42,820 nt of DNA, from assembly GCA_949296475.1 (NCBI GenBank), contig CASFOK010000015.1, positions 1-42,820 of the forward strand, given 5' to 3'. Source of the stretch: an uncultured Pseudomonadota bacterium (lineage in GTDB: Bacteria > Pseudomonadota > Alphaproteobacteria > Rs-D84). The notes under the pieces are model-generated. The model was not told the origin of the DNA and searched no databases. It saw nothing but the letters and a program-made list of their open reading frames with translations. Below, one piece after another: positions 17,878 to 39,793 of this stretch (positions are counted from its first letter, which is position 1; each line of letters starts with the position of its first letter). The translations under genes and the position numbers were made by a program.

Positions 17878-20097
17878 ATGGTTGAAAAGTTCAAGATTTT
17901 ATCAGCAGGAGGAGATTCCAAGGGCCTGAATATATTCAAGTCCAGTGCTTATAACGAGCATCAGCGCAAACCGATGGCGCAGGTTTTTTGGTCTTTGCGT
18001 TGGGCTGTCGGTATATGGCTTGCATGTGCGCTGGCTTTTGGTTTGTCTTTTATAATAGAGCATTTATGGCGATACGGTTTTTCCGTGGCCAGTGCTAAGT
18101 GGACATGGTTATATTTGCAAAATATGTTATATAGTGGCGGTTTGTCAGTATTGGCAGAGGTTCCTGCGTGGGTTAATCGCTCCGTTATGCGTACTGACAT
18201 TGCGTGCATAACACCGCTTATACCGATAATTGCGTATTATTTAATGGCGGATAGTAATTTGGTAAAAGAATTTAATCCATACGGCAACGATAAGTTTTCA
18301 GAAAAGTCTTCTAACAAGGCAACCAAGGAAGATATTGAAAAAATGGGATTATTAAATGGATTTATGATGGTTTTGGGTTATTTCAAGAAAAAGCCATTGA
18401 TGATGAACGAATGCTTGTCTGCGCTGTGTGTTGCGCCCCCGGGGACCGGTAAAACCCAAGGTGTTGTTGTGCCTACTATTTTTGAGTGTAATGGCGTTTC
18501 AATGATTATAAACGACCCAAAGCCGGAATTGAAACAGATTACTTCTGCATATCGTTCAACTGTTGGTCCAGTTTTTATAATGAACTGGGCGGGGCAGGAC
18601 GATCCAGAACGTGGCATATATTATCCGTCATGGAATCCGTTGTCGCCTGAACATGTTCCTTTTGAGACCGAGCAACGCGATTTATATATTGATTCAATTT
18701 GTAATGTATTGGTACCAGATGTTGCATCGTCTTCTGCAGATCCGCACTGGACGATATCTGGGCGCGCAGGATTGTCTGGGTTGATTCAATTTATTGTTTC
18801 AAAGGTTGAACGTGCGCGTGCGGACGATTATTTTTATTCTCGTCTAACATCTGGTACTTTTGATGGGGAAGATGCGGCTGTATTATCTGATTACTATTTA
18901 TCTATGATGAATGACCCGAACGCATTTGCCGCGCAGGCTTTGTTGCAAAAGGGCGAACTAAATGCGATGAATTATGTGCATATAGGGACTTGGGATAAGA
19001 TACCGCCTGCATGGGTCGGGAAAGAGGCATCTTTGTCAATGATACTAGATTGGTTAAATGCCAGTCAGATTAGTATTGCGCAAGAAATGGAAGAACGTCG
19101 TCGTCAAGGTGACCAGATGGTTATGATGGCAGACCCGATGAAAGACTTGTTCCAGGCCGCGGTAGACGAAGCACGTTTATATTCGTATGCACATCGTGCT
19201 GTCTTAGAATTAACGCAACTGGCGAACACGCCTGATAAAGAACGTGGTTCTATATTGTCCACCATAATGGCGGGGTTGGGTATATTCCGTAATGCCGCTG
19301 TTCGTAACAGAACAAGTCATTCGGATTTTCATTTTGAAGATTTGCGCGGGTTGCGTGATCCGCGTGACGGCAAGATAAAACCTGTTACTGTTTATTTATC
19401 AATAAATATGGTTGACGCACAGGCGTTAAATCCGATTACCGGTATATTTATTGAATTAATGACGAATTTCTTGTTGGCGAATGCACCAGAGCAATATCGC
19501 AACGGTCAAAGATTAGGACCTTATCCTGTGTTGTTTGTTTTAGACGAAATGCCCAAGATGCAAAAATTGCAGGCAGTTATCCAAGGTCCAGACCTTGGAC
19601 GTGGTCAAAAAGTTTCTTATTTGATTATCGGACAGGATTTGCATCAGATTGCGGAAAAATATGGTAATGACGCTGCTGCAACGATTATATCTACAACAGC
19701 GGCAAAGATTGTATTGCGTCAAAACGACCCCGATACAGCAAAACGTTTTTCTGAAATGATGGGGTATAAAATGAAATTAAAAACCGTCAAGGGGGCTGAT
19801 GGAAAAGAAAAAGAAGAAACCAGCGAAGAATTGCTGTATACGCCGATGGATATTATGAAGTTAGATGATAAAAAGCAGTTGGTAATATTCCAAGGTTGGT
19901 ACCATAGACCCATAGAGGCTGATAAACAAATGGCGTTTAACGACACCAGACTTGCTGGTTATATGGCCATGGGTGAATGTAGTCCGTTACCAGAGTTTTT
20001 AATACCTTCACATCATGCTGCACTGGGGTATACGGGAACGCCGCGCATTTATATCCCGCAAACGAAAGAGACAAAAATCCTGCAACCAATCAAGTAA
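17878..20097 (+). CDS. VirD4/TraG-type type IV secretion coupling ATPase
   Basis: The 739-residue protein has two or three N-terminal membrane helices (about 40-62, 75-100, 108-123) and a large cytoplasmic ATPase domain. Walker A is at residues 187-194 (PPGTGKTQ) and Walker B at VLFVLDEMPK with D556/E557. The segments WNPLSPEH, DPHWTISGRAG and IIGQDLHQIAEKYG with TAKRFSEMMG are typical of TraG/VirD4 proteins. These hexameric ATPases hand substrates to a type IV secretion channel. No virB, tra or dot gene lies next to it, so it is an orphan here. An AGGAGGAGA at 17908 lies inside the coding region and has no start codon after it, so ATG 17878 is kept. Confidence 0.88.
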   Translation: MVEKFKILSAGGDSKGLNIFKSSAYNEHQRKPMAQVFWSLRWAVGIWLACALAFGLSFIIEHLWRYGFSVASAKWTWLYLQNMLYSGGLSVLAEVPAWVNRSVMRTDIACITPLIPIIAYYLMADSNLVKEFNPYGNDKFSEKSSNKATKEDIEKMGLLNGFMMVLGYFKKKPLMMNECLSALCVAPPGTGKTQGVVVPTIFECNGVSMIINDPKPELKQITSAYRSTVGPVFIMNWAGQDDPERGIYYPSWNPLSPEHVPFETEQRDLYIDSICNVLVPDVASSSADPHWTISGRAGLSGLIQFIVSKVERARADDYFYSRLTSGTFDGEDAAVLSDYYLSMMNDPNAFAAQALLQKGELNAMNYVHIGTWDKIPPAWVGKEASLSMILDWLNASQISIAQEMEERRRQGDQMVMMADPMKDLFQAAVDEARLYSYAHRAVLELTQLANTPDKERGSILSTIMAGLGIFRNAAVRNRTSHSDFHFEDLRGLRDPRDGKIKPVTVYLSINMVDAQALNPITGIFIELMTNFLLANAPEQYRNGQRLGPYPVLFVLDEMPKMQKLQAVIQGPDLGRGQKVSYLIIGQDLHQIAEKYGNDAAATIISTTAAKIVLRQNDPDTAKRFSEMMGYKMKLKTVKGADGKEKEETSEELLYTPMDIMKLDDKKQLVIFQGWYHRPIEADKQMAFNDTRLAGYMAMGECSPLPEFLIPSHHAALGYTGTPRIYIPQTKETKILQPIK

Positions 20098-24493: not shown

Positions 24494-25174
24494 TTATCTA
24501 GCGGGTGCCAAGCGAATTTCAACGCGGCGGTTTGTTAGTCGTCCTATGTCGTCTTGGGCGGCTATTGGTCGCGTAGAGCCACGCCCGACAATGAACATTC
24601 TGGTTGTATTTATTCCGTGCTGAGAAAAATACACCCCGACACGCTGCGCCATATCCAGTGACAGGGCGTTCGCACCTTGTGTATTTTTCATTGCGTCTGT
24701 ATATCCGGCAATTTCTATGAAGGTAGCATTATATTTACGTAAAATCTTTGCAATGGTATTTAATGTATCGGCGCCTGTTTCAGAAATGTCGGCTACATTT
24801 AGTTCCATTATCGCATCACGAACAAGAATTATTACTACGTCGGTACCGGCCCTTTGTACAGATATGCCTGGTTTGCGTAACGAGTCGTACAATTCGTATT
24901 CTAAGTTGGACATGTAATTAATACTAATGGAATTATCGTTTGTAATTTTATCGCCATATTCTAATTTTGCCGGCGCATTTTCACCGGTTACAAGTTTGCC
25001 CCCGCTGCCCAGATAAACAGGTCTTTTTGCAACGCGTGACATTTCTGTCATGTCTGTAAAACTTGCGCCCATTAAATATGTTGACCAAGTTGTTCTATCT
25101 GGACTGTGGTATTGGGCGCAACTGGTTATAAAACCCGCTGATGCTAACAGTAAAAAGCATTTTTTTATTGTCAT
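24494..25174 (-). CDS. OmpA-domain lipoprotein
   Basis: The 226-residue product has a lipobox (FITSC, Cys19), an unrecognised segment of about 100 residues, and a C-terminal OmpA/MotB peptidoglycan-binding domain (about 115-225): IEIAGYTD, LSLDMAQRVGVYFSQHGI, GRGSTRPIA and NRRVEIRL are the conserved blocks. It anchors something to peptidoglycan from the outer membrane. Its ATG overlaps the pilin stop (TAATG), placing it third in dnaX-pilin-lipoprotein. Pal, or a secretion-linked lipoprotein such as DotK/IcmN, are both possible; the pilin neighbour makes an appendage link attractive but unproven. Confidence 0.8.
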   Translation of the reverse strand: MTIKKCFLLLASAGFITSCAQYHSPDRTTWSTYLMGASFTDMTEMSRVAKRPVYLGSGGKLVTGENAPAKLEYGDKITNDNSISINYMSNLEYELYDSLRKPGISVQRAGTDVVIILVRDAIMELNVADISETGADTLNTIAKILRKYNATFIEIAGYTDAMKNTQGANALSLDMAQRVGVYFSQHGINTTRMFIVGRGSTRPIAAQDDIGRLTNRRVEIRLAPAR

Positions 25175-25632
25175 TATTCTATTACAAAAGAAATTTCATT
25201 TGTATTTGTTGAAAAGCAATCGGTATTAATATCTTTGTCAAACCCATTTACCAATAGTTTAGTTGCCCATGTAGGTGTTGACGCTATAAAATACTGGCAT
25301 TCGCTTTTACTTAATTGAGTAAGGTTGATAGTAAAACCTTTGCCGTCATCTGTCGGTTTAACAGACCAGTCTGAACCACCAATAGGCGCACGATTGGATT
25401 TTAGTGCACCGGCAGATATCAGATAATCAACAGACAAGCCCGTATAATCGCCGCGCATTTCCATTAAAAGTTTTGTGTTTTTTACAATTTGCTCCATTTC
25501 CATAGAAGCAATTTTGCGCATTTGGTTATTTCTGATTACGTTATATACGCCAATTGCACCGGCACTCATTATACCGGCAATGGCCAATACACCAAGTATC
25601 TCTATTAAAGAACGGCCTGATTCTTGTTTCAT
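25174..25632 (-). CDS. Type IVb (PilS-like) pilin
   Basis: The 152-residue product has a short leader ending at Gly6, then a class III prepilin N-terminus: residue +1 is Arg, Glu is at +5 (RSLIEILGVLAIAG). The rest matches type IVb/PilS pilins: LSVDYLISAGALKS followed by a beta-rich head with Cys residues in SECQYFI and DCFSTN, which could form the C-terminal disulfide. Start supported by AAGGAAAAC. It is 14 bp downstream of dnaX. PilS pilins build the thin pilus of IncI plasmids. No prepilin peptidase or assembly ATPase is visible here. Confidence 0.8.
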   Translation of the reverse strand: MKQESGRSLIEILGVLAIAGIMSAGAIGVYNVIRNNQMRKIASMEMEQIVKNTKLLMEMRGDYTGLSVDYLISAGALKSNRAPIGGSDWSVKPTDDGKGFTINLTQLSKSECQYFIASTPTWATKLLVNGFDKDINTDCFSTNTNEISFVIE

Positions 25633-27698: not shown

Positions 27699-27722
27699 TA
27701 CCAACAAGGTAGGAGATATATT

Positions 27723-29081
27723 TTGCAAGGCCAAAAAGGAAATTTTTTATTACAAGCGTTATTGGCACTGGCCTTGATTTTCGCATTTCTTCCATTTTTT
27801 GCACAGCAGTTAGCCGGTCGCGACATTGACGCGCAAATGTATTCTTCCACGCGAAAGGTAGAAGTTGCACAAACTGCCGCCAGAATTTTTATTCGTGAAC
27901 AAGCAAACAATTTGCCATATGAAACAACGGTTGTTTCTGGTAACGCGTTTGCAGATTTGTTAGAACCTTATGGTTTGCCGCTGGGGTTTGTGGCGCGTAC
28001 CGCTTTCGGTCAAGATATTGCGTTGGTTATAAGCAAGTCGGGCACGGAAGTTAATGCTTTTTTACGTTTGTCCGGTGGAAATTTGTCTGGGTTGCAATTG
28101 GCGGAATTAGCGCGTCGTATCGGTTTTTATGCAACGACGAATGGTAATAACGAGATAATTGTAGGGTTGGCCCTGGACGAGTTTTATTCAGACGTTGTAA
28201 AAAGAAACGAAACTAATTTAGATAACGGTGCTTTTTTAACAGATTTAGATATGGGGGGATTCAGTTTAAATAATGCCGGCAGCGTATTCGCACGTCGCGG
28301 TGAAATTGAAACGGGGCAGTTTAATACTTTGACGATATTCGGTATAGAAAACGGTCGCAAGGTTAGAAATTCTATAGAATTTATGGCGGCAGAAAAAGCG
28401 ATATTTCAAAGTCCTTCTGGTGGGGCTGCTTTATCGTTAACGCGCGGTTCGTTGTATGCGGAAACGGTTAACGCAAAAACTATTTCTAATTTTGGAGATG
28501 CCGGGAATTTTACGGCGAATTCTGCGGCCGTGTATGAGTTTGCGATGTCCGCTGGTCGTACGGGATTTTATGGACCGACGTCTTGGTATGTCGGCGGTGA
28601 CGTTATCACAGATAATATAAATTTTAGCGTTGAAAGGTTGGAATTAAACTCTTTCTTGAACGCGTCTAGGGGGCAAGACGTTTATCTTTATACGGATGAT
28701 TTTTCATACAGCGTACGCAGCGGTATAGAAACGGGTACGATACTGGCATCAAATATAACCTTGCGTGATCAGACGTCCAGTGCATTGAACGAAGGTGAAA
28801 GTGGCAGTGTCGTGTTGGATATAAGACCTGCCGGAACGTCTCTGCTGCCGGATGCACTGGTTGATTCTGTTGATAACAGTGTGTTTAAAATATTAGACAA
28901 GCCGACAAGTGACAGTTCAAAAACAGTTGATTGTCGTTCTATTGTTACGAAATTGGGGGGGCAATATAATCAAAAATCTTTGTCGCAGTATATAATTTGT
29001 CAGTATGTTTTTTGGCAAAGACTAGAAAAAAGAATTGATGCAAAACAATGTTTGTTAGAGGGAAACAGTGGCTGTATATAA
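27723..29081 (+). CDS. PilV-like minor pilin 1
   Basis: A TTG start with AGGTAGGAGA upstream gives 452 residues. The N-terminus is prepilin-like: basic leader ending in Gly6 then NFLLQALLALALIFAF; the +5 residue is Gln rather than Glu. The head (about 45-170) follows the PilV pattern (QTAARIFIREQA, PYGLPLGFVARTAFGQDIAL). At residues 174-184 the motif DLDMGGFSLNN matches the IDMGGNNLNN-like junction of PilV shufflon proteins, after which the sequence becomes repetitive beta-solenoid-like. The tail has two Cys pairs. It is the first of three tandem paralogues; no Rci recombinase or inverted shufflon repeat is visible. Confidence 0.72.
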   Translation: MQGQKGNFLLQALLALALIFAFLPFFAQQLAGRDIDAQMYSSTRKVEVAQTAARIFIREQANNLPYETTVVSGNAFADLLEPYGLPLGFVARTAFGQDIALVISKSGTEVNAFLRLSGGNLSGLQLAELARRIGFYATTNGNNEIIVGLALDEFYSDVVKRNETNLDNGAFLTDLDMGGFSLNNAGSVFARRGEIETGQFNTLTIFGIENGRKVRNSIEFMAAEKAIFQSPSGGAALSLTRGSLYAETVNAKTISNFGDAGNFTANSAAVYEFAMSAGRTGFYGPTSWYVGGDVITDNINFSVERLELNSFLNASRGQDVYLYTDDFSYSVRSGIETGTILASNITLRDQTSSALNEGESGSVVLDIRPAGTSLLPDALVDSVDNSVFKILDKPTSDSSKTVDCRSIVTKLGGQYNQKSLSQYIICQYVFWQRLEKRIDAKQCLLEGNSGCI

Positions 29082-30270
29082 AAAGAAATTTTTTGATGAT
29101 TCTTGCAGTGGGGCCAGCATGCTAGAAGTTATATTGGCTATGGCAATTGTTGCCATGGCAACGCCGTTTTTATACAGTCAAATTTCTGATACTAACAGTA
29201 CATTGCGTGACATTGCCAAGGCAAAAGAAATCATTGATTTGCGTGGGCCCGTATTAAATTACGTAAGGTTAAATCAAGGAAAATGGCCCGATGTGGCACA
29301 AATTAAATTGTCAGACGATGAATTGGATAATATTTCAACCTTGCCTGATTACGGGTTTATAGATAAATACGTTGTAAACGGTGCAACAATAACAGATGTG
29401 TATTTAGCATTTGAACTGGATGAAAGTCAATTAAAAACGTCAAAAATTGCAAAGCACATAGGCATGGACGCGGCCGTTGTCAGTCAAGATGGTATTGCAT
29501 ATGGTGATTCTTGGGCGGTATCGGCGCCTGACTTTAAGACAGGTAATCTTATATATCGTATATCTCGTGATGTGAACGGCGAAGATAAATCAAAGTATTT
29601 ACATCGTACCGCAACAGGTGAAGAAAAATTAAATATGATGTTACGAGATTTAAATATGGGCGGTAAAAACATATACAATGTGGGTGAAATATTTGCAAAG
29701 TCTGCCGATGTAAGAAATGTGGCAACTTCTTTCATAGAAACGGGCAGTTTATTATCTGATACAATTTATTTTTCATCTGGGGCTACATTAAGCGGAGATT
29801 CGGCGGCGTTTAAAAATATACGCGTATCCGGTGATGTTTCTGGTTTTAGAAATATTTATGCAGATAAATTAAACGGTGATAAATACACAACAAACGGTCG
29901 GGTCATTACAGACAGGGCAACGATTCTGGATTCAGTTAATATTTCAAATAATTTGACCTTAAAGTCCGATACGTCGCGTACCATTGGCAGTTTTATCGGT
30001 GTTTCTGCGCATTCTTTGAATACATCGTATATATCTGCCGAAGAAATTACTTTTTATGAAAATTTTGGTTTGACGATATCTGGCGAATTATTGGTGTCAA
30101 CTACGCCGCCATTGAAAATAGGCAGTTGGTCTTGGCCGTCTTATACGCCACCCAGATTTGCGATTTTAAATTTTACAAGGGCGACAATACCTGCTGTACC
30201 AAACATAAGCGGATTTGGTGTCATAATGTCTGACGGGTGGCAAAGCGCAATGCCAAAGGAAGTTAAATGA
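29068..30270 (+). CDS. PilV-like minor pilin 2
   Basis: A GTG start preceded by GAGGG gives 400 residues and overlaps the previous gene by 14 bp. The leader is longer (cleavage after Gly15 likely), then ASMLEVILAMAIVAMATP with the canonical Glu at +5. The head (about 40-190) is followed by RDLNMGGKNIYN at 193-204, the same junction motif as in paralogue 1, then AKSADVRNV-type repetitive strands rich in Ser/Thr/Asp. Related in layout to PilV of IncI plasmids, whose tip domain recognises recipient cells; here the tail is unlike the other two copies. Confidence 0.72.
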   Translation: MAVYKKKFFDDSCSGASMLEVILAMAIVAMATPFLYSQISDTNSTLRDIAKAKEIIDLRGPVLNYVRLNQGKWPDVAQIKLSDDELDNISTLPDYGFIDKYVVNGATITDVYLAFELDESQLKTSKIAKHIGMDAAVVSQDGIAYGDSWAVSAPDFKTGNLIYRISRDVNGEDKSKYLHRTATGEEKLNMMLRDLNMGGKNIYNVGEIFAKSADVRNVATSFIETGSLLSDTIYFSSGATLSGDSAAFKNIRVSGDVSGFRNIYADKLNGDKYTTNGRVITDRATILDSVNISNNLTLKSDTSRTIGSFIGVSAHSLNTSYISAEEITFYENFGLTISGELLVSTTPPLKIGSWSWPSYTPPRFAILNFTRATIPAVPNISGFGVIMSDGWQSAMPKEVK

Positions 30271-31583
30271 TGTATAACGTACGTTTGTTCGCTAGTAAAA
30301 AACAACAGCGTGGCAGTATGCTGGTTGAACTGCTGATGAGTGTGGCGTTGGCCGCCATAGTTATGCCATTTATTTTCAAATATCAAAAAGATGCGATAGT
30401 GAGGGCTGAAAACATCGCCGTAACACGTCAGATGGAAAACGTGCAAAGTGCGCTTGAAAGGTATATCGTTGATAACCGTGAAGAGTTATTAAAAACGGTC
30501 GGAAAAAATATAACGCGCGTAAATTTTGCGGATTTGGTTGATTACGGTATTTCAGAGGATTTGGTCGCTGAATATGGCAAAGATTATCAATTAAGGGTTT
30601 TAAAGTCTAACGATGCAAACAATCAGTCTACGTTACAAGGTGTGGTTGTTTTTTCGTCCGAAGATATTTCACCGCTACGAACCCGTGAAATCGTTGCGAT
30701 GGGTGGCGATTCTATGGGAATCATAGAGGGGAATCGTGCGTATGGTACTTTTGGTGCTTGGCGGGCTGATACGGTTGATTTAGGCGTAAATATACAAGAC
30801 GGTATTGTCGGCACAACATCCGTCAATCGTGATAGCGCGTTGTACTTATGGCGCGTTCCGTCTGATAACGCGTCAGATGCAACAATGTTATCCGGGTTAA
30901 ATTTGGGCGGTCATAATATAGATAACGTTGCGTTTTTAAATGTCACATCTGCTCAGTTTGATGAAAATTTAGTTATGGGGGCGACCGTTGCCAAGGAAGC
31001 GATTTTTCAAAATTTAACCACCTTGGATCAAAGTTTTGAGGCGATAAACGCAACCGTGTCTGGTATTTTGTCTGCAGATTCCAGAACTATGGAAGTTTCC
31101 GGTAATTTCAACCTGGCGGATACCGCAAAATTTACAAGTTTTACTGTTGGTGACTTATGGGTGACAAATATGACGTTGTCTGGATTGTCTATAACCGCAG
31201 AAAACGAGGTTTCTGTGTTAAAAGTTAACAGAAGTATTGATATGACGTCTGGGTGGATTGATGCCATGTATGTTACAGTTGGGTTTACGGGTTCAATTAC
31301 GCCGCGATTAGTCGTTTATAATAGAATAGAAGACTCGGTTAACCCGAATTATTATTGGGACGTCGGTACTGGCGTTGCGAATTTTCAAGACATTTCTTTT
31401 GAAAACCTTAACAGGATGGCGATTGATGCGGTGTACGTTGAAAACGGCGGTAACACAGAAGCCGGTAAAATTTTTGGTGCTGTATCTGCGAATATGAACG
31501 CTACGGCGTCTGATTATATGAATGCGATACAAGAAATACAAAATAAAGTTACAGCAAAATATAGATTGTTGAATTTGGAGTAA
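30267..31583 (+). CDS. PilV-like minor pilin 3
   Basis: The 438-residue product overlaps the previous gene by ATGA and has AAGGAAG upstream. The leader ends at Gly16 and the +5 residue is Glu (SMLVELLMSVALAAIVMP). The head (about 45-205) is followed by LNLGGHNIDN at 211-220, equivalent to the junction motif of its two neighbours, then a long tail of short beta strands (FQNLTTL, VSGNFNLAD) and a helical end with MNAIQEIQNKV. The three genes form one translationally coupled unit, so different tip adhesins would be made together rather than switched. Confidence 0.72.
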   Translation: MMYNVRLFASKKQQRGSMLVELLMSVALAAIVMPFIFKYQKDAIVRAENIAVTRQMENVQSALERYIVDNREELLKTVGKNITRVNFADLVDYGISEDLVAEYGKDYQLRVLKSNDANNQSTLQGVVVFSSEDISPLRTREIVAMGGDSMGIIEGNRAYGTFGAWRADTVDLGVNIQDGIVGTTSVNRDSALYLWRVPSDNASDATMLSGLNLGGHNIDNVAFLNVTSAQFDENLVMGATVAKEAIFQNLTTLDQSFEAINATVSGILSADSRTMEVSGNFNLADTAKFTSFTVGDLWVTNMTLSGLSITAENEVSVLKVNRSIDMTSGWIDAMYVTVGFTGSITPRLVVYNRIEDSVNPNYYWDVGTGVANFQDISFENLNRMAIDAVYVENGGNTEAGKIFGAVSANMNATASDYMNAIQEIQNKVTAKYRLLNLE

Positions 31584-33559: not shown

Positions 33560-33668
33560 TGTTCACCGATAAATTTGCCCCAAAAATAACATTTTGTTTT
33601 CCTATATTTTTTCTTTATCAAAAGATGTTTTTGTGTTATAATTAGACAATAAGTATGGAGTGAGTCTA

Positions 33669-36600
33669 ATGAATCTTTTGAAAAAAACAATTGGTTTTAT
33701 GGCTGTTTTTGGCGTTGTTCCGGCATCTTTTGCTTTGACGGCGCGTCCTAGTGTGGTAGGTACCGCAACATCGCGTATACCGACGATGGCGACATATATT
33801 ACTGGTACTACGACCACGACGACGAACACAACTTTATTGGCAAATGCCGATTGTATAGAGGCTTACACCAGTTGCTTAAAAGGCGGTGACGTTTGCGGTG
33901 CGAATTTTGAAGAATGTACTAATAACACGTTATTTTTCTCTAAGCGTCCATTATGTACCAGTACGTTGATGCAGTGTGAAAACACGGGGGTCAGTTCGTT
34001 GTTTGGTACCAGTAATCAGGCGGCATTTGCAAACAAAGACGCAAACGGTGAATACATTTATCCGACCCCAGGCAGTGTTTTAGGTCAGTTGATTGAGGCT
34101 GCTTCTATCAGCAATCGTTACGATACCAGCGACTGCGTTAAAAGATATACGAATTGCTTAAAGAAAGAAGATGTTTGCGGAACAGACTTTGAATTATGTA
34201 CAAGTAATACGGAATTCAAAAAGCAAAAGTTGTTCTGTGAATCTACATTGGCGCGTTGTCAGGACGAAGGCGTTACGGAATTATTTGGTTCTACGAACAA
34301 AACGGCGAACCCGACCAGTAACAGTCGCGTTGGTATTATGATTTCCGAAGGGGCGGCGTTGGCTGCGGTAAACGCTGTATCTACTTGTTACAAGGTTGTT
34401 GACCAATGTTTCTTGAACGCTTGTGCGTCTAATCCTTATAAATGTAAAGAAGGCAGCACCCAAGAAATCATTAAATATGCTGATAACGCCAGCAATACTG
34501 ACGGCACAACGGTAACAACGGGCGTAACAGATTTCATTCAAACAACGATTAATCGTAGCGAGGTATCAGGTTTCTTGAAGAACGCGTGTTTGGATACAAT
34601 CGGTGCGAATAAATATTGTTATGCGACATTCTTGGGTAACGGTGTAATGCCAACGAATTCGCAATTAAACGACGAAGATAATAAAAACGACATTTATTCC
34701 GAGGCTTATTCGTCACGTATGAACGACGCGATGCGTTCCAAGATTGATGACTTGATTACCCAGTTTGATAAAAAGGTCAAAGAACGTTGTTCAGAAACAA
34801 TCGTATCTTGCGCAATGCGTACATGTGGCGAAGGCAGCGGCGCGGCATGCTATGCATCTGCATTTAACAGCGCAAATAAAATAAAAGGCGTTACAAATCC
34901 GTCTACGATGGAAGGCATAAAGGTTGGGTGTGAAGCGGTCATTAATAATGATACCGCATGTCAATATGCAACGGCGACATTTGATAACACAACGGGTGCG
35001 TTGATATTTGAAGACAACAGTTTGTTTGATAAATTATTTACAGCGCCCGATGATGTAGATGTGACTAATCCTGATCCGGTTGGTGCGGTGGCGACTTTGA
35101 ATTCTCGGTTGGCGACGTCATATAATCAGGCGGCATTAGATCAGATGAAAAAGCAATGCGAAGCGGTCGCAACCAGTTGTGTAAAATCAATGTGTGGCAC
35201 GGATTATCAGAATTGTTATCGTAACCGTACAGATGTGGTGTCAACGTTAACGAATACAGGTAATAACAAGTTTGATAAAAGTATGAACAAGGTTGGTGGC
35301 GTTTTGGATCATACGATTGTCTTGGGCTTGTGCTTGAATTCGGTCAAGAATAACAGTGCATGTGAAGAACATATCAAGGCGGAAATTGCACGTAACAAGG
35401 CAGATTCTTCATATACTGCTAATTCTTGGGGTGCGGGCATTACAGATACGCGTACTGGTTGGTTAGATGCCGGTAATTATGGAATTACGACCGAAGTGCA
35501 AGATATTGACGCGGACGGCAACCTGCTTTGCACGACGGCGCAAGACGGTGACGGCAGTGCGGGTCGTTGTGATGACCCCAGTGGTATGTACATCTATCCA
35601 AAGATGGTGTCACAGACAACATACGCGCAAAACCTGGCAGAAAGACAAGTGTTCCGTGACTTAATTTCGGACCTGGAAATGGAGGCACAGGCACAATATA
35701 ACGCAAAATTAACATATCAACAAAATATGTGTATGTCTATGAACGAAGGCGGAGTCATTGGTAATAAAGATACGGGCAGTGCATATATGTGGGTAAAGTT
35801 AAGAAATAACAAAATCCCATCGGATTATAGTACAATGGGATTGGCAGAAAATGACTTTACCGCCAGTAACGATTTGTATGGTTCGTTCTGTCGTGTTCGT
35901 GTGACATTGCAGTCAGAGGATACGAATATACAAAACTTGTTAAAAACTGGTAAATTCACAACTGCATATTTTGCAACGGGTGATACGTTTACCTGCGGCA
36001 GTTGGATTGGTACAAACGAACTGGAAGCCATTGCGAACAAGATTGCAGAGGAATCTGTTGCGGACAAGGCAGAGGCTCAAAAACGTACACGTACATGGTT
36101 GACGGTATTAGGTACGTTGGGTTCTGGTATTGGTGGCGGTTATTTAACAGATTCATTGCAAGACGGTGATTTCTTGGGTGGTTTGTTGGGAACAAATAAC
36201 AAGAAAGATGACGACAGTGATATACTGGATAAATACACCAAGGCATTGAATGCATATGTCGCGGACAGCAATCCTACAACAGCGCAAATGTATGGTGAAA
36301 CTATGATTAGTTTGGCAAATCAGGCGGAGGTAGATGCAGCGAATATAACCGCAGCACGTAATGCGTTAAACAACACCCTTGGAATATCACAAGCGGCGCC
36401 AGTTGTTCAAAGCACAAAGCCCGTGTACTCATATTCAGACTACCAGACGGCGTATAATTTATTTAAAGGTAGTTCAGAATATAATACTTTTGTCTCCTCA
36501 GGTCAAAAAATGATAGATATAGCCAAGTTTTATAGTGTTAATACAGACTCTGTGTCAAAGGCGTTCATGGCGGCCGCCACAGATTTGTTGGCTTGGGATA

Positions 36601-37103
36601 CTTGTTTGATGCTACAAAATAATAATGGTTGTATGACAGAAAATAATAAGTTTTATGATAGTAGTGATGAAGCAGAAAAACAGTTTTCTAACTTAGGTAA
36701 CATTGTACAAGTTGCTGCGAATATGTCTTCAAATGTTAGCACGCCGGCTGTGACGAATAATACAGCAACAGTTGCCCAGAACAAGTCAGCAGCAAACGCT
36801 ACATTTACAAGTTTGAAAACCGCTGTTGAGTTTGCTTTAGATAAAAAGGGTGACAGTGAAGATGAAAGTAAGGCAAAACGGACACGTTCTGTGGTTAATT
36901 TGGTGGGTGCGGCCGCTACAGCAACTGCGGGCGGTATCATCATCAACAGATTAACGAATGATATACAACAAACCAGTCTGGATGCTGATAAAAAGGCCGC
37001 CTATACCGAATGGATGAATAATGTCGGCAGTAAAATCCATTGCTACATAGGGGCTGAGTACGCAGGTGACTATGGCAATAGAATAAGTGTATCTATTGAA
37101 TAA
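33669..37103 (+). CDS. Large cysteine-module exported protein, unrecognised
   Basis: The 1144-residue product has a signal peptide (MNLLKKTIGFMAVFGVVPASFA). Two matching repeats (residues 61-117 and 155-211) each hold six Cys with identical spacing, x6-x6-x6-x12-x6. Three later modules follow C-x6-C-x4-C-x6/7-C, starting near residues 240, 374 and 497. Two hydrophobic Gly/Ala-rich helices (LTVLGTLGSGIGGGYL near 815 and VVNLVGAAATATAGGIII near 1080) may be membrane-active. The ATG at 33669 has GGAGTGAG upstream and a TATAAT about 30 bp before. No known family is recognised; a surface or secreted structural protein is the likeliest role. Confidence 0.7.
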   Translation: MNLLKKTIGFMAVFGVVPASFALTARPSVVGTATSRIPTMATYITGTTTTTTNTTLLANADCIEAYTSCLKGGDVCGANFEECTNNTLFFSKRPLCTSTLMQCENTGVSSLFGTSNQAAFANKDANGEYIYPTPGSVLGQLIEAASISNRYDTSDCVKRYTNCLKKEDVCGTDFELCTSNTEFKKQKLFCESTLARCQDEGVTELFGSTNKTANPTSNSRVGIMISEGAALAAVNAVSTCYKVVDQCFLNACASNPYKCKEGSTQEIIKYADNASNTDGTTVTTGVTDFIQTTINRSEVSGFLKNACLDTIGANKYCYATFLGNGVMPTNSQLNDEDNKNDIYSEAYSSRMNDAMRSKIDDLITQFDKKVKERCSETIVSCAMRTCGEGSGAACYASAFNSANKIKGVTNPSTMEGIKVGCEAVINNDTACQYATATFDNTTGALIFEDNSLFDKLFTAPDDVDVTNPDPVGAVATLNSRLATSYNQAALDQMKKQCEAVATSCVKSMCGTDYQNCYRNRTDVVSTLTNTGNNKFDKSMNKVGGVLDHTIVLGLCLNSVKNNSACEEHIKAEIARNKADSSYTANSWGAGITDTRTGWLDAGNYGITTEVQDIDADGNLLCTTAQDGDGSAGRCDDPSGMYIYPKMVSQTTYAQNLAERQVFRDLISDLEMEAQAQYNAKLTYQQNMCMSMNEGGVIGNKDTGSAYMWVKLRNNKIPSDYSTMGLAENDFTASNDLYGSFCRVRVTLQSEDTNIQNLLKTGKFTTAYFATGDTFTCGSWIGTNELEAIANKIAEESVADKAEAQKRTRTWLTVLGTLGSGIGGGYLTDSLQDGDFLGGLLGTNNKKDDDSDILDKYTKALNAYVADSNPTTAQMYGETMISLANQAEVDAANITAARNALNNTLGISQAAPVVQSTKPVYSYSDYQTAYNLFKGSSEYNTFVSSGQKMIDIAKFYSVNTDSVSKAFMAAATDLLAWDTCLMLQNNNGCMTENNKFYDSSDEAEKQFSNLGNIVQVAANMSSNVSTPAVTNNTATVAQNKSAANATFTSLKTAVEFALDKKGDSEDESKAKRTRSVVNLVGAAATATAGGIIINRLTNDIQQTSLDADKKAAYTEWMNNVGSKIHCYIGAEYAGDYGNRISVSIE

Positions 37104-37104
37104 T

Positions 37105-37130
37105 AAAAACGCCCAAACGGGCGTTTTTTT
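37105..37130 (+). terminator. Intrinsic terminator after the 1144-residue gene
   Basis: CGCCC/GGGCG around AAAC with A5/T7 flanks; the core is identical to the terminator after lpoB. It separates this gene from the next one, which has its own promoter. Confidence 0.9.
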
Positions 37131-37162
37131 ATTTTCTTATTTTTTATTTTTATACGTGATTT

Positions 37163-37191
37163 TTGTCTTTTCACATGACATTTTTTATGTT
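37163..37191 (+). promoter_or_regulatory. Promoter of the second cysteine-module gene
   Basis: TTGTCT (37163-37168) and TATGTT (37186-37191) are 17 bp apart and lie 19 bp upstream of the ATG at 37211. Its position also rules out the longer reading frame from 37163. Confidence 0.6.
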
Positions 37192-37210
37192 AAAATTAAA
37201 CCCAAGAGAG

Positions 37211-39004
37211 ATGATAAACAATATATCAAGATTTTTATGCGTTGCATTGGCATTGATATCTGTCAATGCATATTCTGCACCGGTTGCCACAACCGCGGGC
37301 AGTAATTTGACCGCGTATAATCCTGCATTTGGTTCTAATAACAATAACGCATGGAATTCTTTGACGAACGTTCGTTCCATGGGTGATAGCGGGAACGTCG
37401 TTGACAACAGTGCACCTGTCGCAGATTTTGGTAATTGCAACGCCTTGATTTTGCGTTGCGTGCAACCAAAGTGCGCAACAGGCGGTTGTACGACGCTGGA
37501 CATCGCGCGTCCGATTGTCGCCGGCTGTGTAGAGGATAATCAGGTTTGTAAGCAATACGGAAACACTTTGATAGATACGCTTGCCGCGCAGGTGGTTGCT
37601 AATACCTTGGCAAAGTCTAATCAACAGGCCACCGCCGCGCAAAATAACGCTATGCAGGCAGAAATGCAGGCCGCTGCACAGGCTGCCGCGCAACAAAGCG
37701 CACAGCAAATACAAGCAATGCAGGAACAAATGCAGGCAATGCAAGAACAAATGGCGCAACAAAACGCCGAAACGGCTGCAATGTTACAAGAGGCTTTATC
37801 AGCGCAACAGCAATCTGCATCGTCTGTTCAGGCGCCAAGTGTTTCAAATACAACGGCTGCAACCGCATCGGACGGCGATTCTGTTAGTGCGGGTTTAACA
37901 GCCGCGCAACAGATTGCGGCCGCATCGGGCGTATCGGCGGATGTTTTGGCGCGCGAACAAATTGCTGGTCAGATATTATCGCAAATAGAAAATGCAGAGG
38001 TTTCTTTGAAGGAACTGCGCGCAACGTTGAACGATGTGTATAATTATGCGGGTTGTGATTCTTCGGGGAATAATTGTACCGGGCCAAAACGTGTAAAAAC
38101 ATTTAAAGAAAAGGCCATGAACTTTTTTGAGCCGTATAATAACGTTTTGGACGAGTTGTATGAAGGCTTGATACTGGCACAATCTGTTGGTGTTGATATT
38201 ACGGATATTTATATGATGCTGAACGGTACCTGTAACGTTTGGGGAAAGTACGTATGTGGTCCTGGTCAGGTTATGCATTATACAACATCAAACTGTATTC
38301 AGGGTGTATCCATTCCTGGTGATGGGTTATTGGGTGGCGCAAAATGTACTGTTGGTCAGGTTGTACCGATGTCAGATGGTGGGTGTCAGTTAATACAAAT
38401 GCTGACTAATAATGAAGATGTTCAAAAGACTTGGTTGTATCCAGAAGTTGAACCGGCAGACAACAAAGCAACAGTTCGTGTTGGTTGTGCGTCCGAGTCG
38501 TTGGATAATTCATCCTTGTTCAGTAATCGCAAAAAGCAGGCGTCTATTGATATAGAAACCCTGCAAAGAATTATTGAGCAAGATGCGCCTGCTTCTTACG
38601 GAAACACATTTGCTAGTGGTGCTAAACCGAATCCTGATGGTATCAAGTTTTGTGCTGTCGGGGCAGAAGGTTATGCAGATTTACAGAAAATAGTTTCATT
38701 AAAACAGTTGCCCGATGTTGTTTGTGTATCAGATAATGCCTTGAATACGTATATTAATCAATCCAAAATAACACCAATTGTAAATACAGATAATTTTGCT
38801 GTTAATAATATTATACTGCAGTGTCGTAACAAATACACAGCTGATAGTACAAATTTCAATATGGAAGAGTGTTTATGTACAACATCTAGTACAGCAAATA
38901 TGATGTCGGATGTATGGTGGTATTGGAAAGATAAAGCTTGTGTATGTACCGATACAGATTATGAATTTGATACTGGTACACTAACTTGTAAGAAAAAAAA
39001 GTAA
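37211..39004 (+). CDS. Second cysteine-module exported protein with Gln-rich coiled coil
   Basis: From the ATG at 37211 (AAGAGAG directly upstream) the product is 597 residues with a signal peptide ending NAYSA. A C-x6-C-x4-C-x4-C module at residues 76-93 resembles the modules of the preceding protein. A Gln/Ala/Met-rich coiled coil (about 140-215, with the tandem AMQEQMQAMQEQM) follows, then a Ser/Thr linker, a helical region and a cysteine-rich C-terminal half. No family is recognised. It directly abuts the next gene (TAA then ATG), so the two are cotranscribed and may form a complex. Confidence 0.65.
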   Translation: MINNISRFLCVALALISVNAYSAPVATTAGSNLTAYNPAFGSNNNNAWNSLTNVRSMGDSGNVVDNSAPVADFGNCNALILRCVQPKCATGGCTTLDIARPIVAGCVEDNQVCKQYGNTLIDTLAAQVVANTLAKSNQQATAAQNNAMQAEMQAAAQAAAQQSAQQIQAMQEQMQAMQEQMAQQNAETAAMLQEALSAQQQSASSVQAPSVSNTTAATASDGDSVSAGLTAAQQIAAASGVSADVLAREQIAGQILSQIENAEVSLKELRATLNDVYNYAGCDSSGNNCTGPKRVKTFKEKAMNFFEPYNNVLDELYEGLILAQSVGVDITDIYMMLNGTCNVWGKYVCGPGQVMHYTTSNCIQGVSIPGDGLLGGAKCTVGQVVPMSDGGCQLIQMLTNNEDVQKTWLYPEVEPADNKATVRVGCASESLDNSSLFSNRKKQASIDIETLQRIIEQDAPASYGNTFASGAKPNPDGIKFCAVGAEGYADLQKIVSLKQLPDVVCVSDNALNTYINQSKITPIVNTDNFAVNNIILQCRNKYTADSTNFNMEECLCTTSSTANMMSDVWWYWKDKACVCTDTDYEFDTGTLTCKKKK

Positions 39005-39793
39005 ATGAAAAACAATAAAAAAGATTTTATTAAAAGTTTTTCTCTGTATCCCTTGCTGTTTGGGCTTGTTTGTTGTTTTGGCTTGTCCGATGTTGCTGGG
39101 GCGGCATCAAATAACGGTTGTGGTATAGAAAAAAATAACAGGATTAATCCAGAAATTGCATTATGCAGCACACATGTGTATAACAGAGGCGAGACAACCA
39201 ATCCAACAGATGAAGCAAATAAGCAGGTAATGCGAGATGTCATCGCACTAAAAACAACTGTAATTACACAGCAATTAGAACAGCAGTACGATTTCTTGGA
39301 AGCAACTGTAAAGCGCTTAAAAACACAACTACAAAAAGCCGTCTTAACAACAAAGTTAGAGGCGTCAGGCGCATCGTCCGGTTCTTCTTCTGGGGGTAGT
39401 GGCGGAATCAGCACAAAAGGCGTTGCTGGTGCAGAAAATTGCCGCACAGGTTATACTTCTGATGTTATGAATTGTTTATCACGTAATCTGGATAGAACTT
39501 TATCAGCAATTAACAATTCTGACATTGGTGCCGCAAAACAGCAGATTCAAATAGATTTGGAAACTATGCGTTTATATGATAATTTAACACCAAAAGAGCT
39601 AACAACAAAAGATAATACACACTCTTCTGTTAGTGATGCATTTAAGACTGCATATGATGAATGTACCGAAGCAGGCTCAAATCGTCAAAAATTAAATCTT
39701 TGTATTGATTATATGCGTGTTGTGGTTACACGTAATTTAGAAAACTTGCAAAGACAGAATACTTCTTATGGATATAATCAAATGAGATGGTAA
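39005..39793 (+). CDS. Unrecognised exported protein with N-terminal coiled coil
   Basis: The 262-residue product has a signal-like N-terminus (LLFGLVCCFGLSDVAGA), a coiled coil (about 75-120, VITQQLEQQYDFLEATVKRLKTQLQKAV), a Gly/Ser linker (GSSSGGSGG) and a helical C-terminal domain with four Cys. It starts on the base after the preceding stop. Its function is unknown; its coupling with the coiled-coil partner upstream suggests they act together. Confidence 0.6.
   Translation: MKNNKKDFIKSFSLYPLLFGLVCCFGLSDVAGAASNNGCGIEKNNRINPEIALCSTHVYNRGETTNPTDEANKQVMRDVIALKTTVITQQLEQQYDFLEATVKRLKTQLQKAVLTTKLEASGASSGSSSGGSGGISTKGVAGAENCRTGYTSDVMNCLSRNLDRTLSAINNSDIGAAKQQIQIDLETMRLYDNLTPKELTTKDNTHSSVSDAFKTAYDECTEAGSNRQKLNLCIDYMRVVVTRNLENLQRQNTSYGYNQMRW

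Follow-up and report, generated by a model that had tools for sequence, protein, structure and literature searches.

Here we describe three overlapping genes (hereafter A, B and C) encoding PilV-like minor pilins that, on balance, probably form one hetero-oligomeric tip of a chromosomal type IVb pilus resembling those of plasmids R64 and TP114. The genes lie in a stretch of 42,820 nucleotides (the window), which is contig 15 of an 882-kb genome. The closest named relatives of the host are Candidatus Enterousia, which belongs to the reduced-genome alphaproteobacterial order Rs-D84 (PMC12306168).

All three genes are on the forward strand. A occupies 27723..29081 (452 amino acids, TTG start), B 29068..30270 (400 amino acids, GTG start) and C 30267..31583 (438 amino acids, ATG start). 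A and B overlap by 14 nt, B and C by 4 nt (ATGA). A Shine-Dalgarno sequence, AGGAG, lies upstream of A (27711..27715), and Shine-Dalgarno-like stretches precede B (AGAGGGA, within A; 29057..29063) and C (AAGGAAG, within B; 30256..30262), all on the forward strand. The view of the first-pass annotation is borne out in that the genes are chromosomal, fixed and translationally coupled, and in that leader, type IV pilin head and junction are present in each. Each protein begins with a short leader with Gly at −1, followed by a hydrophobic helix (α1) with a Pro at about position 18 of the mature sequence. The A leader is MQGQKG, and mature A starts NFLLQ, with Gln at +5; the B and C leaders end at CSG and QRG, and the mature proteins start ASMLE and SMLVE, both with Glu at +5. 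The type IV prepilin hallmarks (leader Gly, hydrophobic α1 and Glu at +5) are thus present in all three, except for the Glu in A.

The head ends at a junction motif, located exactly at the residues that the annotation had given: DLDMGGFSLNN in A (residues 174–184; 28242..28274), DLNMGGKNIYN in B (residues 194–204; 29647..29679) and LNLGGHNIDN in C (residues 211–220, preceded by G; 30897..30926), again on the forward strand. Among 6000 shuffled sequences of the A, B and C proteins, none had the junction pattern. At the corresponding position, an L[DN][ML]-type motif recurs in each gene's genus orthologues and in most order-level orthologues. Beyond the junction, the forward strand encodes the tails of A (residues 185–452; 28275..29078), B (residues 205–400; 29680..30267) and C (residues 221–438; 30927..31580). 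The A tail has no recognised domain and terminates in a predicted helix and a conserved Cys.

Profile comparison identifies the heads and junctions of A, B and C as homologous to PilV of plasmid R64. Against a set of R64 PilV and seven further PilV proteins, hhalign gave probabilities of 93–98% for the genus-level heads and 99% or more for the order-level families, in each case across the entire head and junction; the PilS control reached ≤41%. An HMM of the heads built from Rs-D84 proteins only, with PilV left out, matched R64 PilV with an E value of 2.5e-20 (residues 32–239; about 70 sequences searched), and the profile also matched geopilin, a type IV pilin of solved structure, in its N-terminal region (E 1.8e-5). 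The PilV-like character that had been proposed for heads and junctions is thereby upheld. By the annotation's own criterion the proposal would have been refuted had the heads matched neither PilV nor any type IV pilin family, which was not the case.

The usual family models fail to detect A, B and C. The Pfam model Shufflon_N (PF04917) covers residues 33–361 of R64 PilV (621 bits), whereas it had no match among the window proteins or in the rest of the genome. Pfam N_methyl matched the trio below its cut-off only, and searches of the trio proteins with Pfam, NCBIfam and PHROGs returned no significant family. Hence, of the proposed comparison with the shufflon/PilV family, the profile–profile and HMM matches stand, but PF04917 does not recognise the trio; judged from these searches, the PilV assignment holds as homology and not as membership of the Pfam model. 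The annotation had also placed the PilV junction directly before the shufflon-exchanged tip, which needs correction. In R64 PilV the motif occupies residues 214–223 and the constant region continues to about residue 361, so the motif marks the junction of head and stalk and not the edge of the exchanged tip.

AlphaFold models were made of A and C. The A head (residues 31–150) has a pLDDT of about 75–89; the C head was modelled less well. Using VIA-align, residues 30–152 of A gave Z scores of 10.0 with PilA1, 8.6 with PilW and 8.2 with TcpA, the next unrelated row scoring 4.2, and the A head is thus predicted to have a type IV pilin fold. A Foldseek search of the whole A model against the PDB yielded nothing significant. 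Structure prediction, as the annotation had suggested, therefore recovered the pilin fold for the A head, whereas the tails reached a pLDDT of only about 30 as monomers. Such low values would be compatible with intertwined multimers, yet are not evidence for them.

The genome encodes what family matches identify as a pilus machine of the R64/TP114 type IVb kind, dispersed on the chromosome, in agreement with the chromosomal pilus that had been proposed. It comprises PilQ and PilR (one T2SSF protein adjoining one assembly ATPase), PilP (35.8 bits; cut-off 34.65), PilO (26.9 bits; cut-off 26.7), a lipoprotein-type secretin in the PilN role, one prepilin peptidase and PilS-like pilins. The full R64-type set (PilN, O, P, Q, R, S and prepilin peptidase) was thus found, with PilO, PilP and PilS near their cut-offs. 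One PilS-like pilin is encoded inside the window (25174..25632, reverse strand, 152 amino acids; PilS 20.2 bits, just below the cut-off of 22). Its gene is a conserved neighbour of the trio in the genus, and it is probably the major pilin of the trio's pilus. No PilT-type retraction ATPase was identified in the genome; the other T2SSE match is VirB11-like.

Several further genes were noted in the genome. The PilS-like pilin gene abuts a gene for an OmpA-like lipoprotein weakly similar to IcmN/DotK (window 24494–25632, reverse strand). A VirD4-like coupling protein (window 17878–20097) and the VirB11-like ATPase, encoded elsewhere in the genome (L120:8081–9076), apparently belong, from their sequences, to a chromosomal Vir-type secretion system. 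Large Cys-rich predicted secreted proteins are encoded downstream of the trio (window 33660–39793) and also directly beside the prepilin peptidase gene (L118:8636–15718); they are possibly pilus-linked cargo or surface proteins.

There is no recombinase gene in the window, and the three tyrosine recombinases of the genome are on other contigs, consistent with the earlier statement that Rci is missing. No shufflon-like repeats were found, and the tails are fixed between species. A shufflon remnant was rejected on these three grounds.

The tails appear unrelated to each other, as had been noted: hhalign detected no homology among the A, B and C tails and PilV tails. It also found no relation of tails between families of Rs-D84, leaving a conserved C-terminal element that had been suggested by eye unsupported, and the A, B and C tails showed no sequence homology to solved structures. 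Within the genus, mean pairwise identity is nearly the same for tail and head (.57 and.58 in A,.55 and.58 in B,.53 and.59 in C), and dN/dS is about 0.03–0.2 across heads and tails where synonymous changes are unsaturated. Given these values, which led us to reject diversifying selection on the tails within the genus, the tails are fixed, constrained parts and not variable adhesins. Synonymous divergence along the trio relative to the closest relative (L125) varies from 0.25 to 1.1, which suggests homologous recombination between strains.

A strict tandem spacing rule describes 72 of the 74 complete loci in the species collection; one exception has slightly wider spacing and the other is cut by a contig edge. 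B or C is missing only at loci that end at a contig edge. The head HMM matches 109 of 114 genomes and 14 of 15 genera of the order, typically in three to five stretches. Absences in G082, G045, G064 and G883 were not counted as trio loss, because the expected stretch in G082, the one checked, is masked as N. G877 has neither the trio nor a T2SSF protein, a possible co-loss. In other families of the order the trio stays together amid different gene surroundings. In a maximum-likelihood tree of the heads, A, B and C form one clade each (support 87/71, 96/90 and 96/84, respectively; that for A as a single clade is moderate), so the triplication is older than Rs-D84; C lies on the PilV side of the tree. 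Each of the three is also kept as a one-to-one lineage across the genus. The survey of related genomes that the annotation had called for thus revealed a trio number conserved across the order, but tails that have not diversified among members of the genus.

Among the matching genomes beyond the order, the majority have one PilV-like gene, often a long one. Other arrangements were also seen. G576 (L251:5058–10073) carries another tandem array of three genes for prepilins with PilV-like heads (659, 426 and 578 amino acids); in the head tree, two of these proteins group together, on long branches, outside the A, B and C clades. G541 (L252:5809–8883) and G645 (L253:3490–6390) encode single giant PilV-like proteins (1024 and 966 amino acids) with tail-fibre-like repeats after the junction. 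In another alphaproteobacterial family, G126 and G632 (L255, L257–L266) each have several unlinked genes for proteins of about 580–780 amino acids in which a PilV-like head is followed by tails that differ widely: some end in a C-type-lectin-like block (WTTD...WLG...ALCGP), others in glycine-rich domains. These two genomes look more like carriers of many tip adhesins at once than the window trio does.

The mature +5 residue differs within the trio: in the genus it is Gln in 41 of 41 A proteins and Glu in 37 of 37 B and 37 of 38 C proteins (the remaining one being Asp). A also has Gln5 at four other loci in this family and at four in a second one; elsewhere A has Glu. This A-specific loss of Glu5 suggests unequal roles in the trio. 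The Glu5Gln variant of Vibrio cholerae TcpB is still able to initiate pili, but functions linked to retraction fail (PMC5207764). A Glu5-less subunit would thus be expected at the very tip, although the TcpB analogy is loose because no retraction ATPase was identified here.

Co-variation of divergence was computed across 63 loci, with correction for DnaX and RluD. Tails correlate with tails across genes (.416) more than heads with tails within a gene (.225); the bootstrapped difference is.18 (95% interval.105–.266). The correlation with PilS is higher for heads (.346) than for tails (.190; the difference has an interval of.042–.244). Both contrasts exceed all 150 random column partitions, while that of tails with heads across genes is barely above the null maximum (.134 versus.130). 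The pattern is in keeping with contacts of heads with one another and with PilS, and of tails with one another, although shared selection (for example, by the same host surface) instead of contact could produce it.

From these observations we infer a physical hetero-complex, its location at the tip and an order of insertion. A, B and C would derive from an ancient triplication and now be non-interchangeable subunits of a hetero-oligomeric tip, probably 1:1:1, inserted once, at the start of assembly, as a cap. Through its α1 helix, each head would dock on the two others and on the upper end of the PilS filament, and past the LDMGG junction the three tails would pack or twist into a single spike that contacts a surface or carries cargo. 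A, which departs from the canonical Glu5, would initiate assembly, being inserted first and ending up outermost at the tip, with B and C docking beneath it via Glu5. The stricter form of this proposal, in which the heterotrimer is obligate and its three PilV paralogues had already diverged when Rs-D84 radiated, with A as Glu5-less initiator, seems to us evenly poised between right and wrong.

The first-pass annotation had instead read the trio as several tip adhesins carried at once. In such a scheme, A, B and C would be independent PilV-like adhesins for different ligands, with their own homo-oligomeric tips on different pili or on one pilus. The tails do lack detectable mutual homology, with CofB and TcpB the tip is a homotrimer built from one kind of minor pilin (PMC9565799), and plasmid PilV tails select recipients (PMC9045228). 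However, exactly three genes are retained in fixed order in genomes of 0.7–1.1 Mb, the tails co-vary mutually more than with their own heads, Glu5 is lost specifically from A, and the tails, which show no diversification within the genus, are as conserved there as the heads, under purifying selection and in three one-to-one lineages. We therefore regard independent adhesins as a serious but rather unlikely explanation, and the composite tip as the likelier of the two; the one-to-one retention of the trio, as seen in sequence comparison, is more readily explained by subunits of one complex than by alternative adhesins.

More doubtful still is that the trio comprises assembly-priming or accessory minor pilins at the tip or in the shaft, with tails that serve pilus-dependent secretion, DNA uptake or envelope passage and not surface adhesion; for such a role speak the secreted proteins carried by the TcpB and CofB tips (PMC9565799) and the large Cys-rich protein genes adjoining the trio and the prepilin peptidase. 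That the genes are redundant, decaying duplicates, or what is left of an earlier shufflon in fixed form, as the tandem arrangement and PilV homology might suggest, can practically be dismissed, since the low dN/dS throughout heads and tails already contradicts it, as do the three clades maintained across the order and the lack of recombination sites and of an adjacent recombinase.

If the composite tip exists, it would represent an evolutionary path along which a single PilV-type tip, switchable or homotrimeric, gave way to three paralogues that are fixed and specialised. The genome also reveals a complete type IVb pilus in a reduced-genome gut order; in a recent survey, type IV pili are mentioned for a different lineage alone, not for Rs-D84 (PMC12306168). 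If the trio forms the tip of these uncultured bacteria's pilus, the only one found in them, it would be a good candidate for how they attach to a host, to a partner or to other bacterial cells. Tad and type IVa-like pili include examples of hetero-tips (PMC12075869). None is described for PilV-, CofB- or TcpB-type pili in the literature cited here. Type II secretion systems also have a hetero-tip of minor pseudopilins (GspI-J-K), in which GspK lacks Glu5.

The trio shares with PilV of the thin type IVb pili of IncI plasmids (R64, TP114) a homologous head, an LDMGGNN-type junction, a prepilin leader and the same type of machinery. By contrast, those plasmids have one switchable PilV (PMC9045228), whereas here three separate chromosomal genes are fixed, with no shufflon or Rci and with tails unrelated in sequence to the PilV stalk or tip. 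Like CofB, TcpB and LngB, the trio proteins are large minor pilins with a pilin head and a C-terminal extension (β-rich in those proteins; modelled at a pLDDT of about 30 in the trio), in systems with no identified retraction ATPase. No sequence match of the trio to CofB or TcpB was found, and these known type IVb pilus proteins are products of single genes that form homotrimers (PMC9565799, PMC5207764), unlike the three paralogues here. Myxococcus KilLMN, Streptococcus sanguinis PilABC and GspI-J-K resemble the trio as three minor pilins encoded together and proposed to form a single tip. Those, however, belong to Tad, type IVa-like or type II secretion systems and have unrelated extensions, whereas the trio consists of PilV-type paralogues and belongs to an R64-like type IVb pilus.
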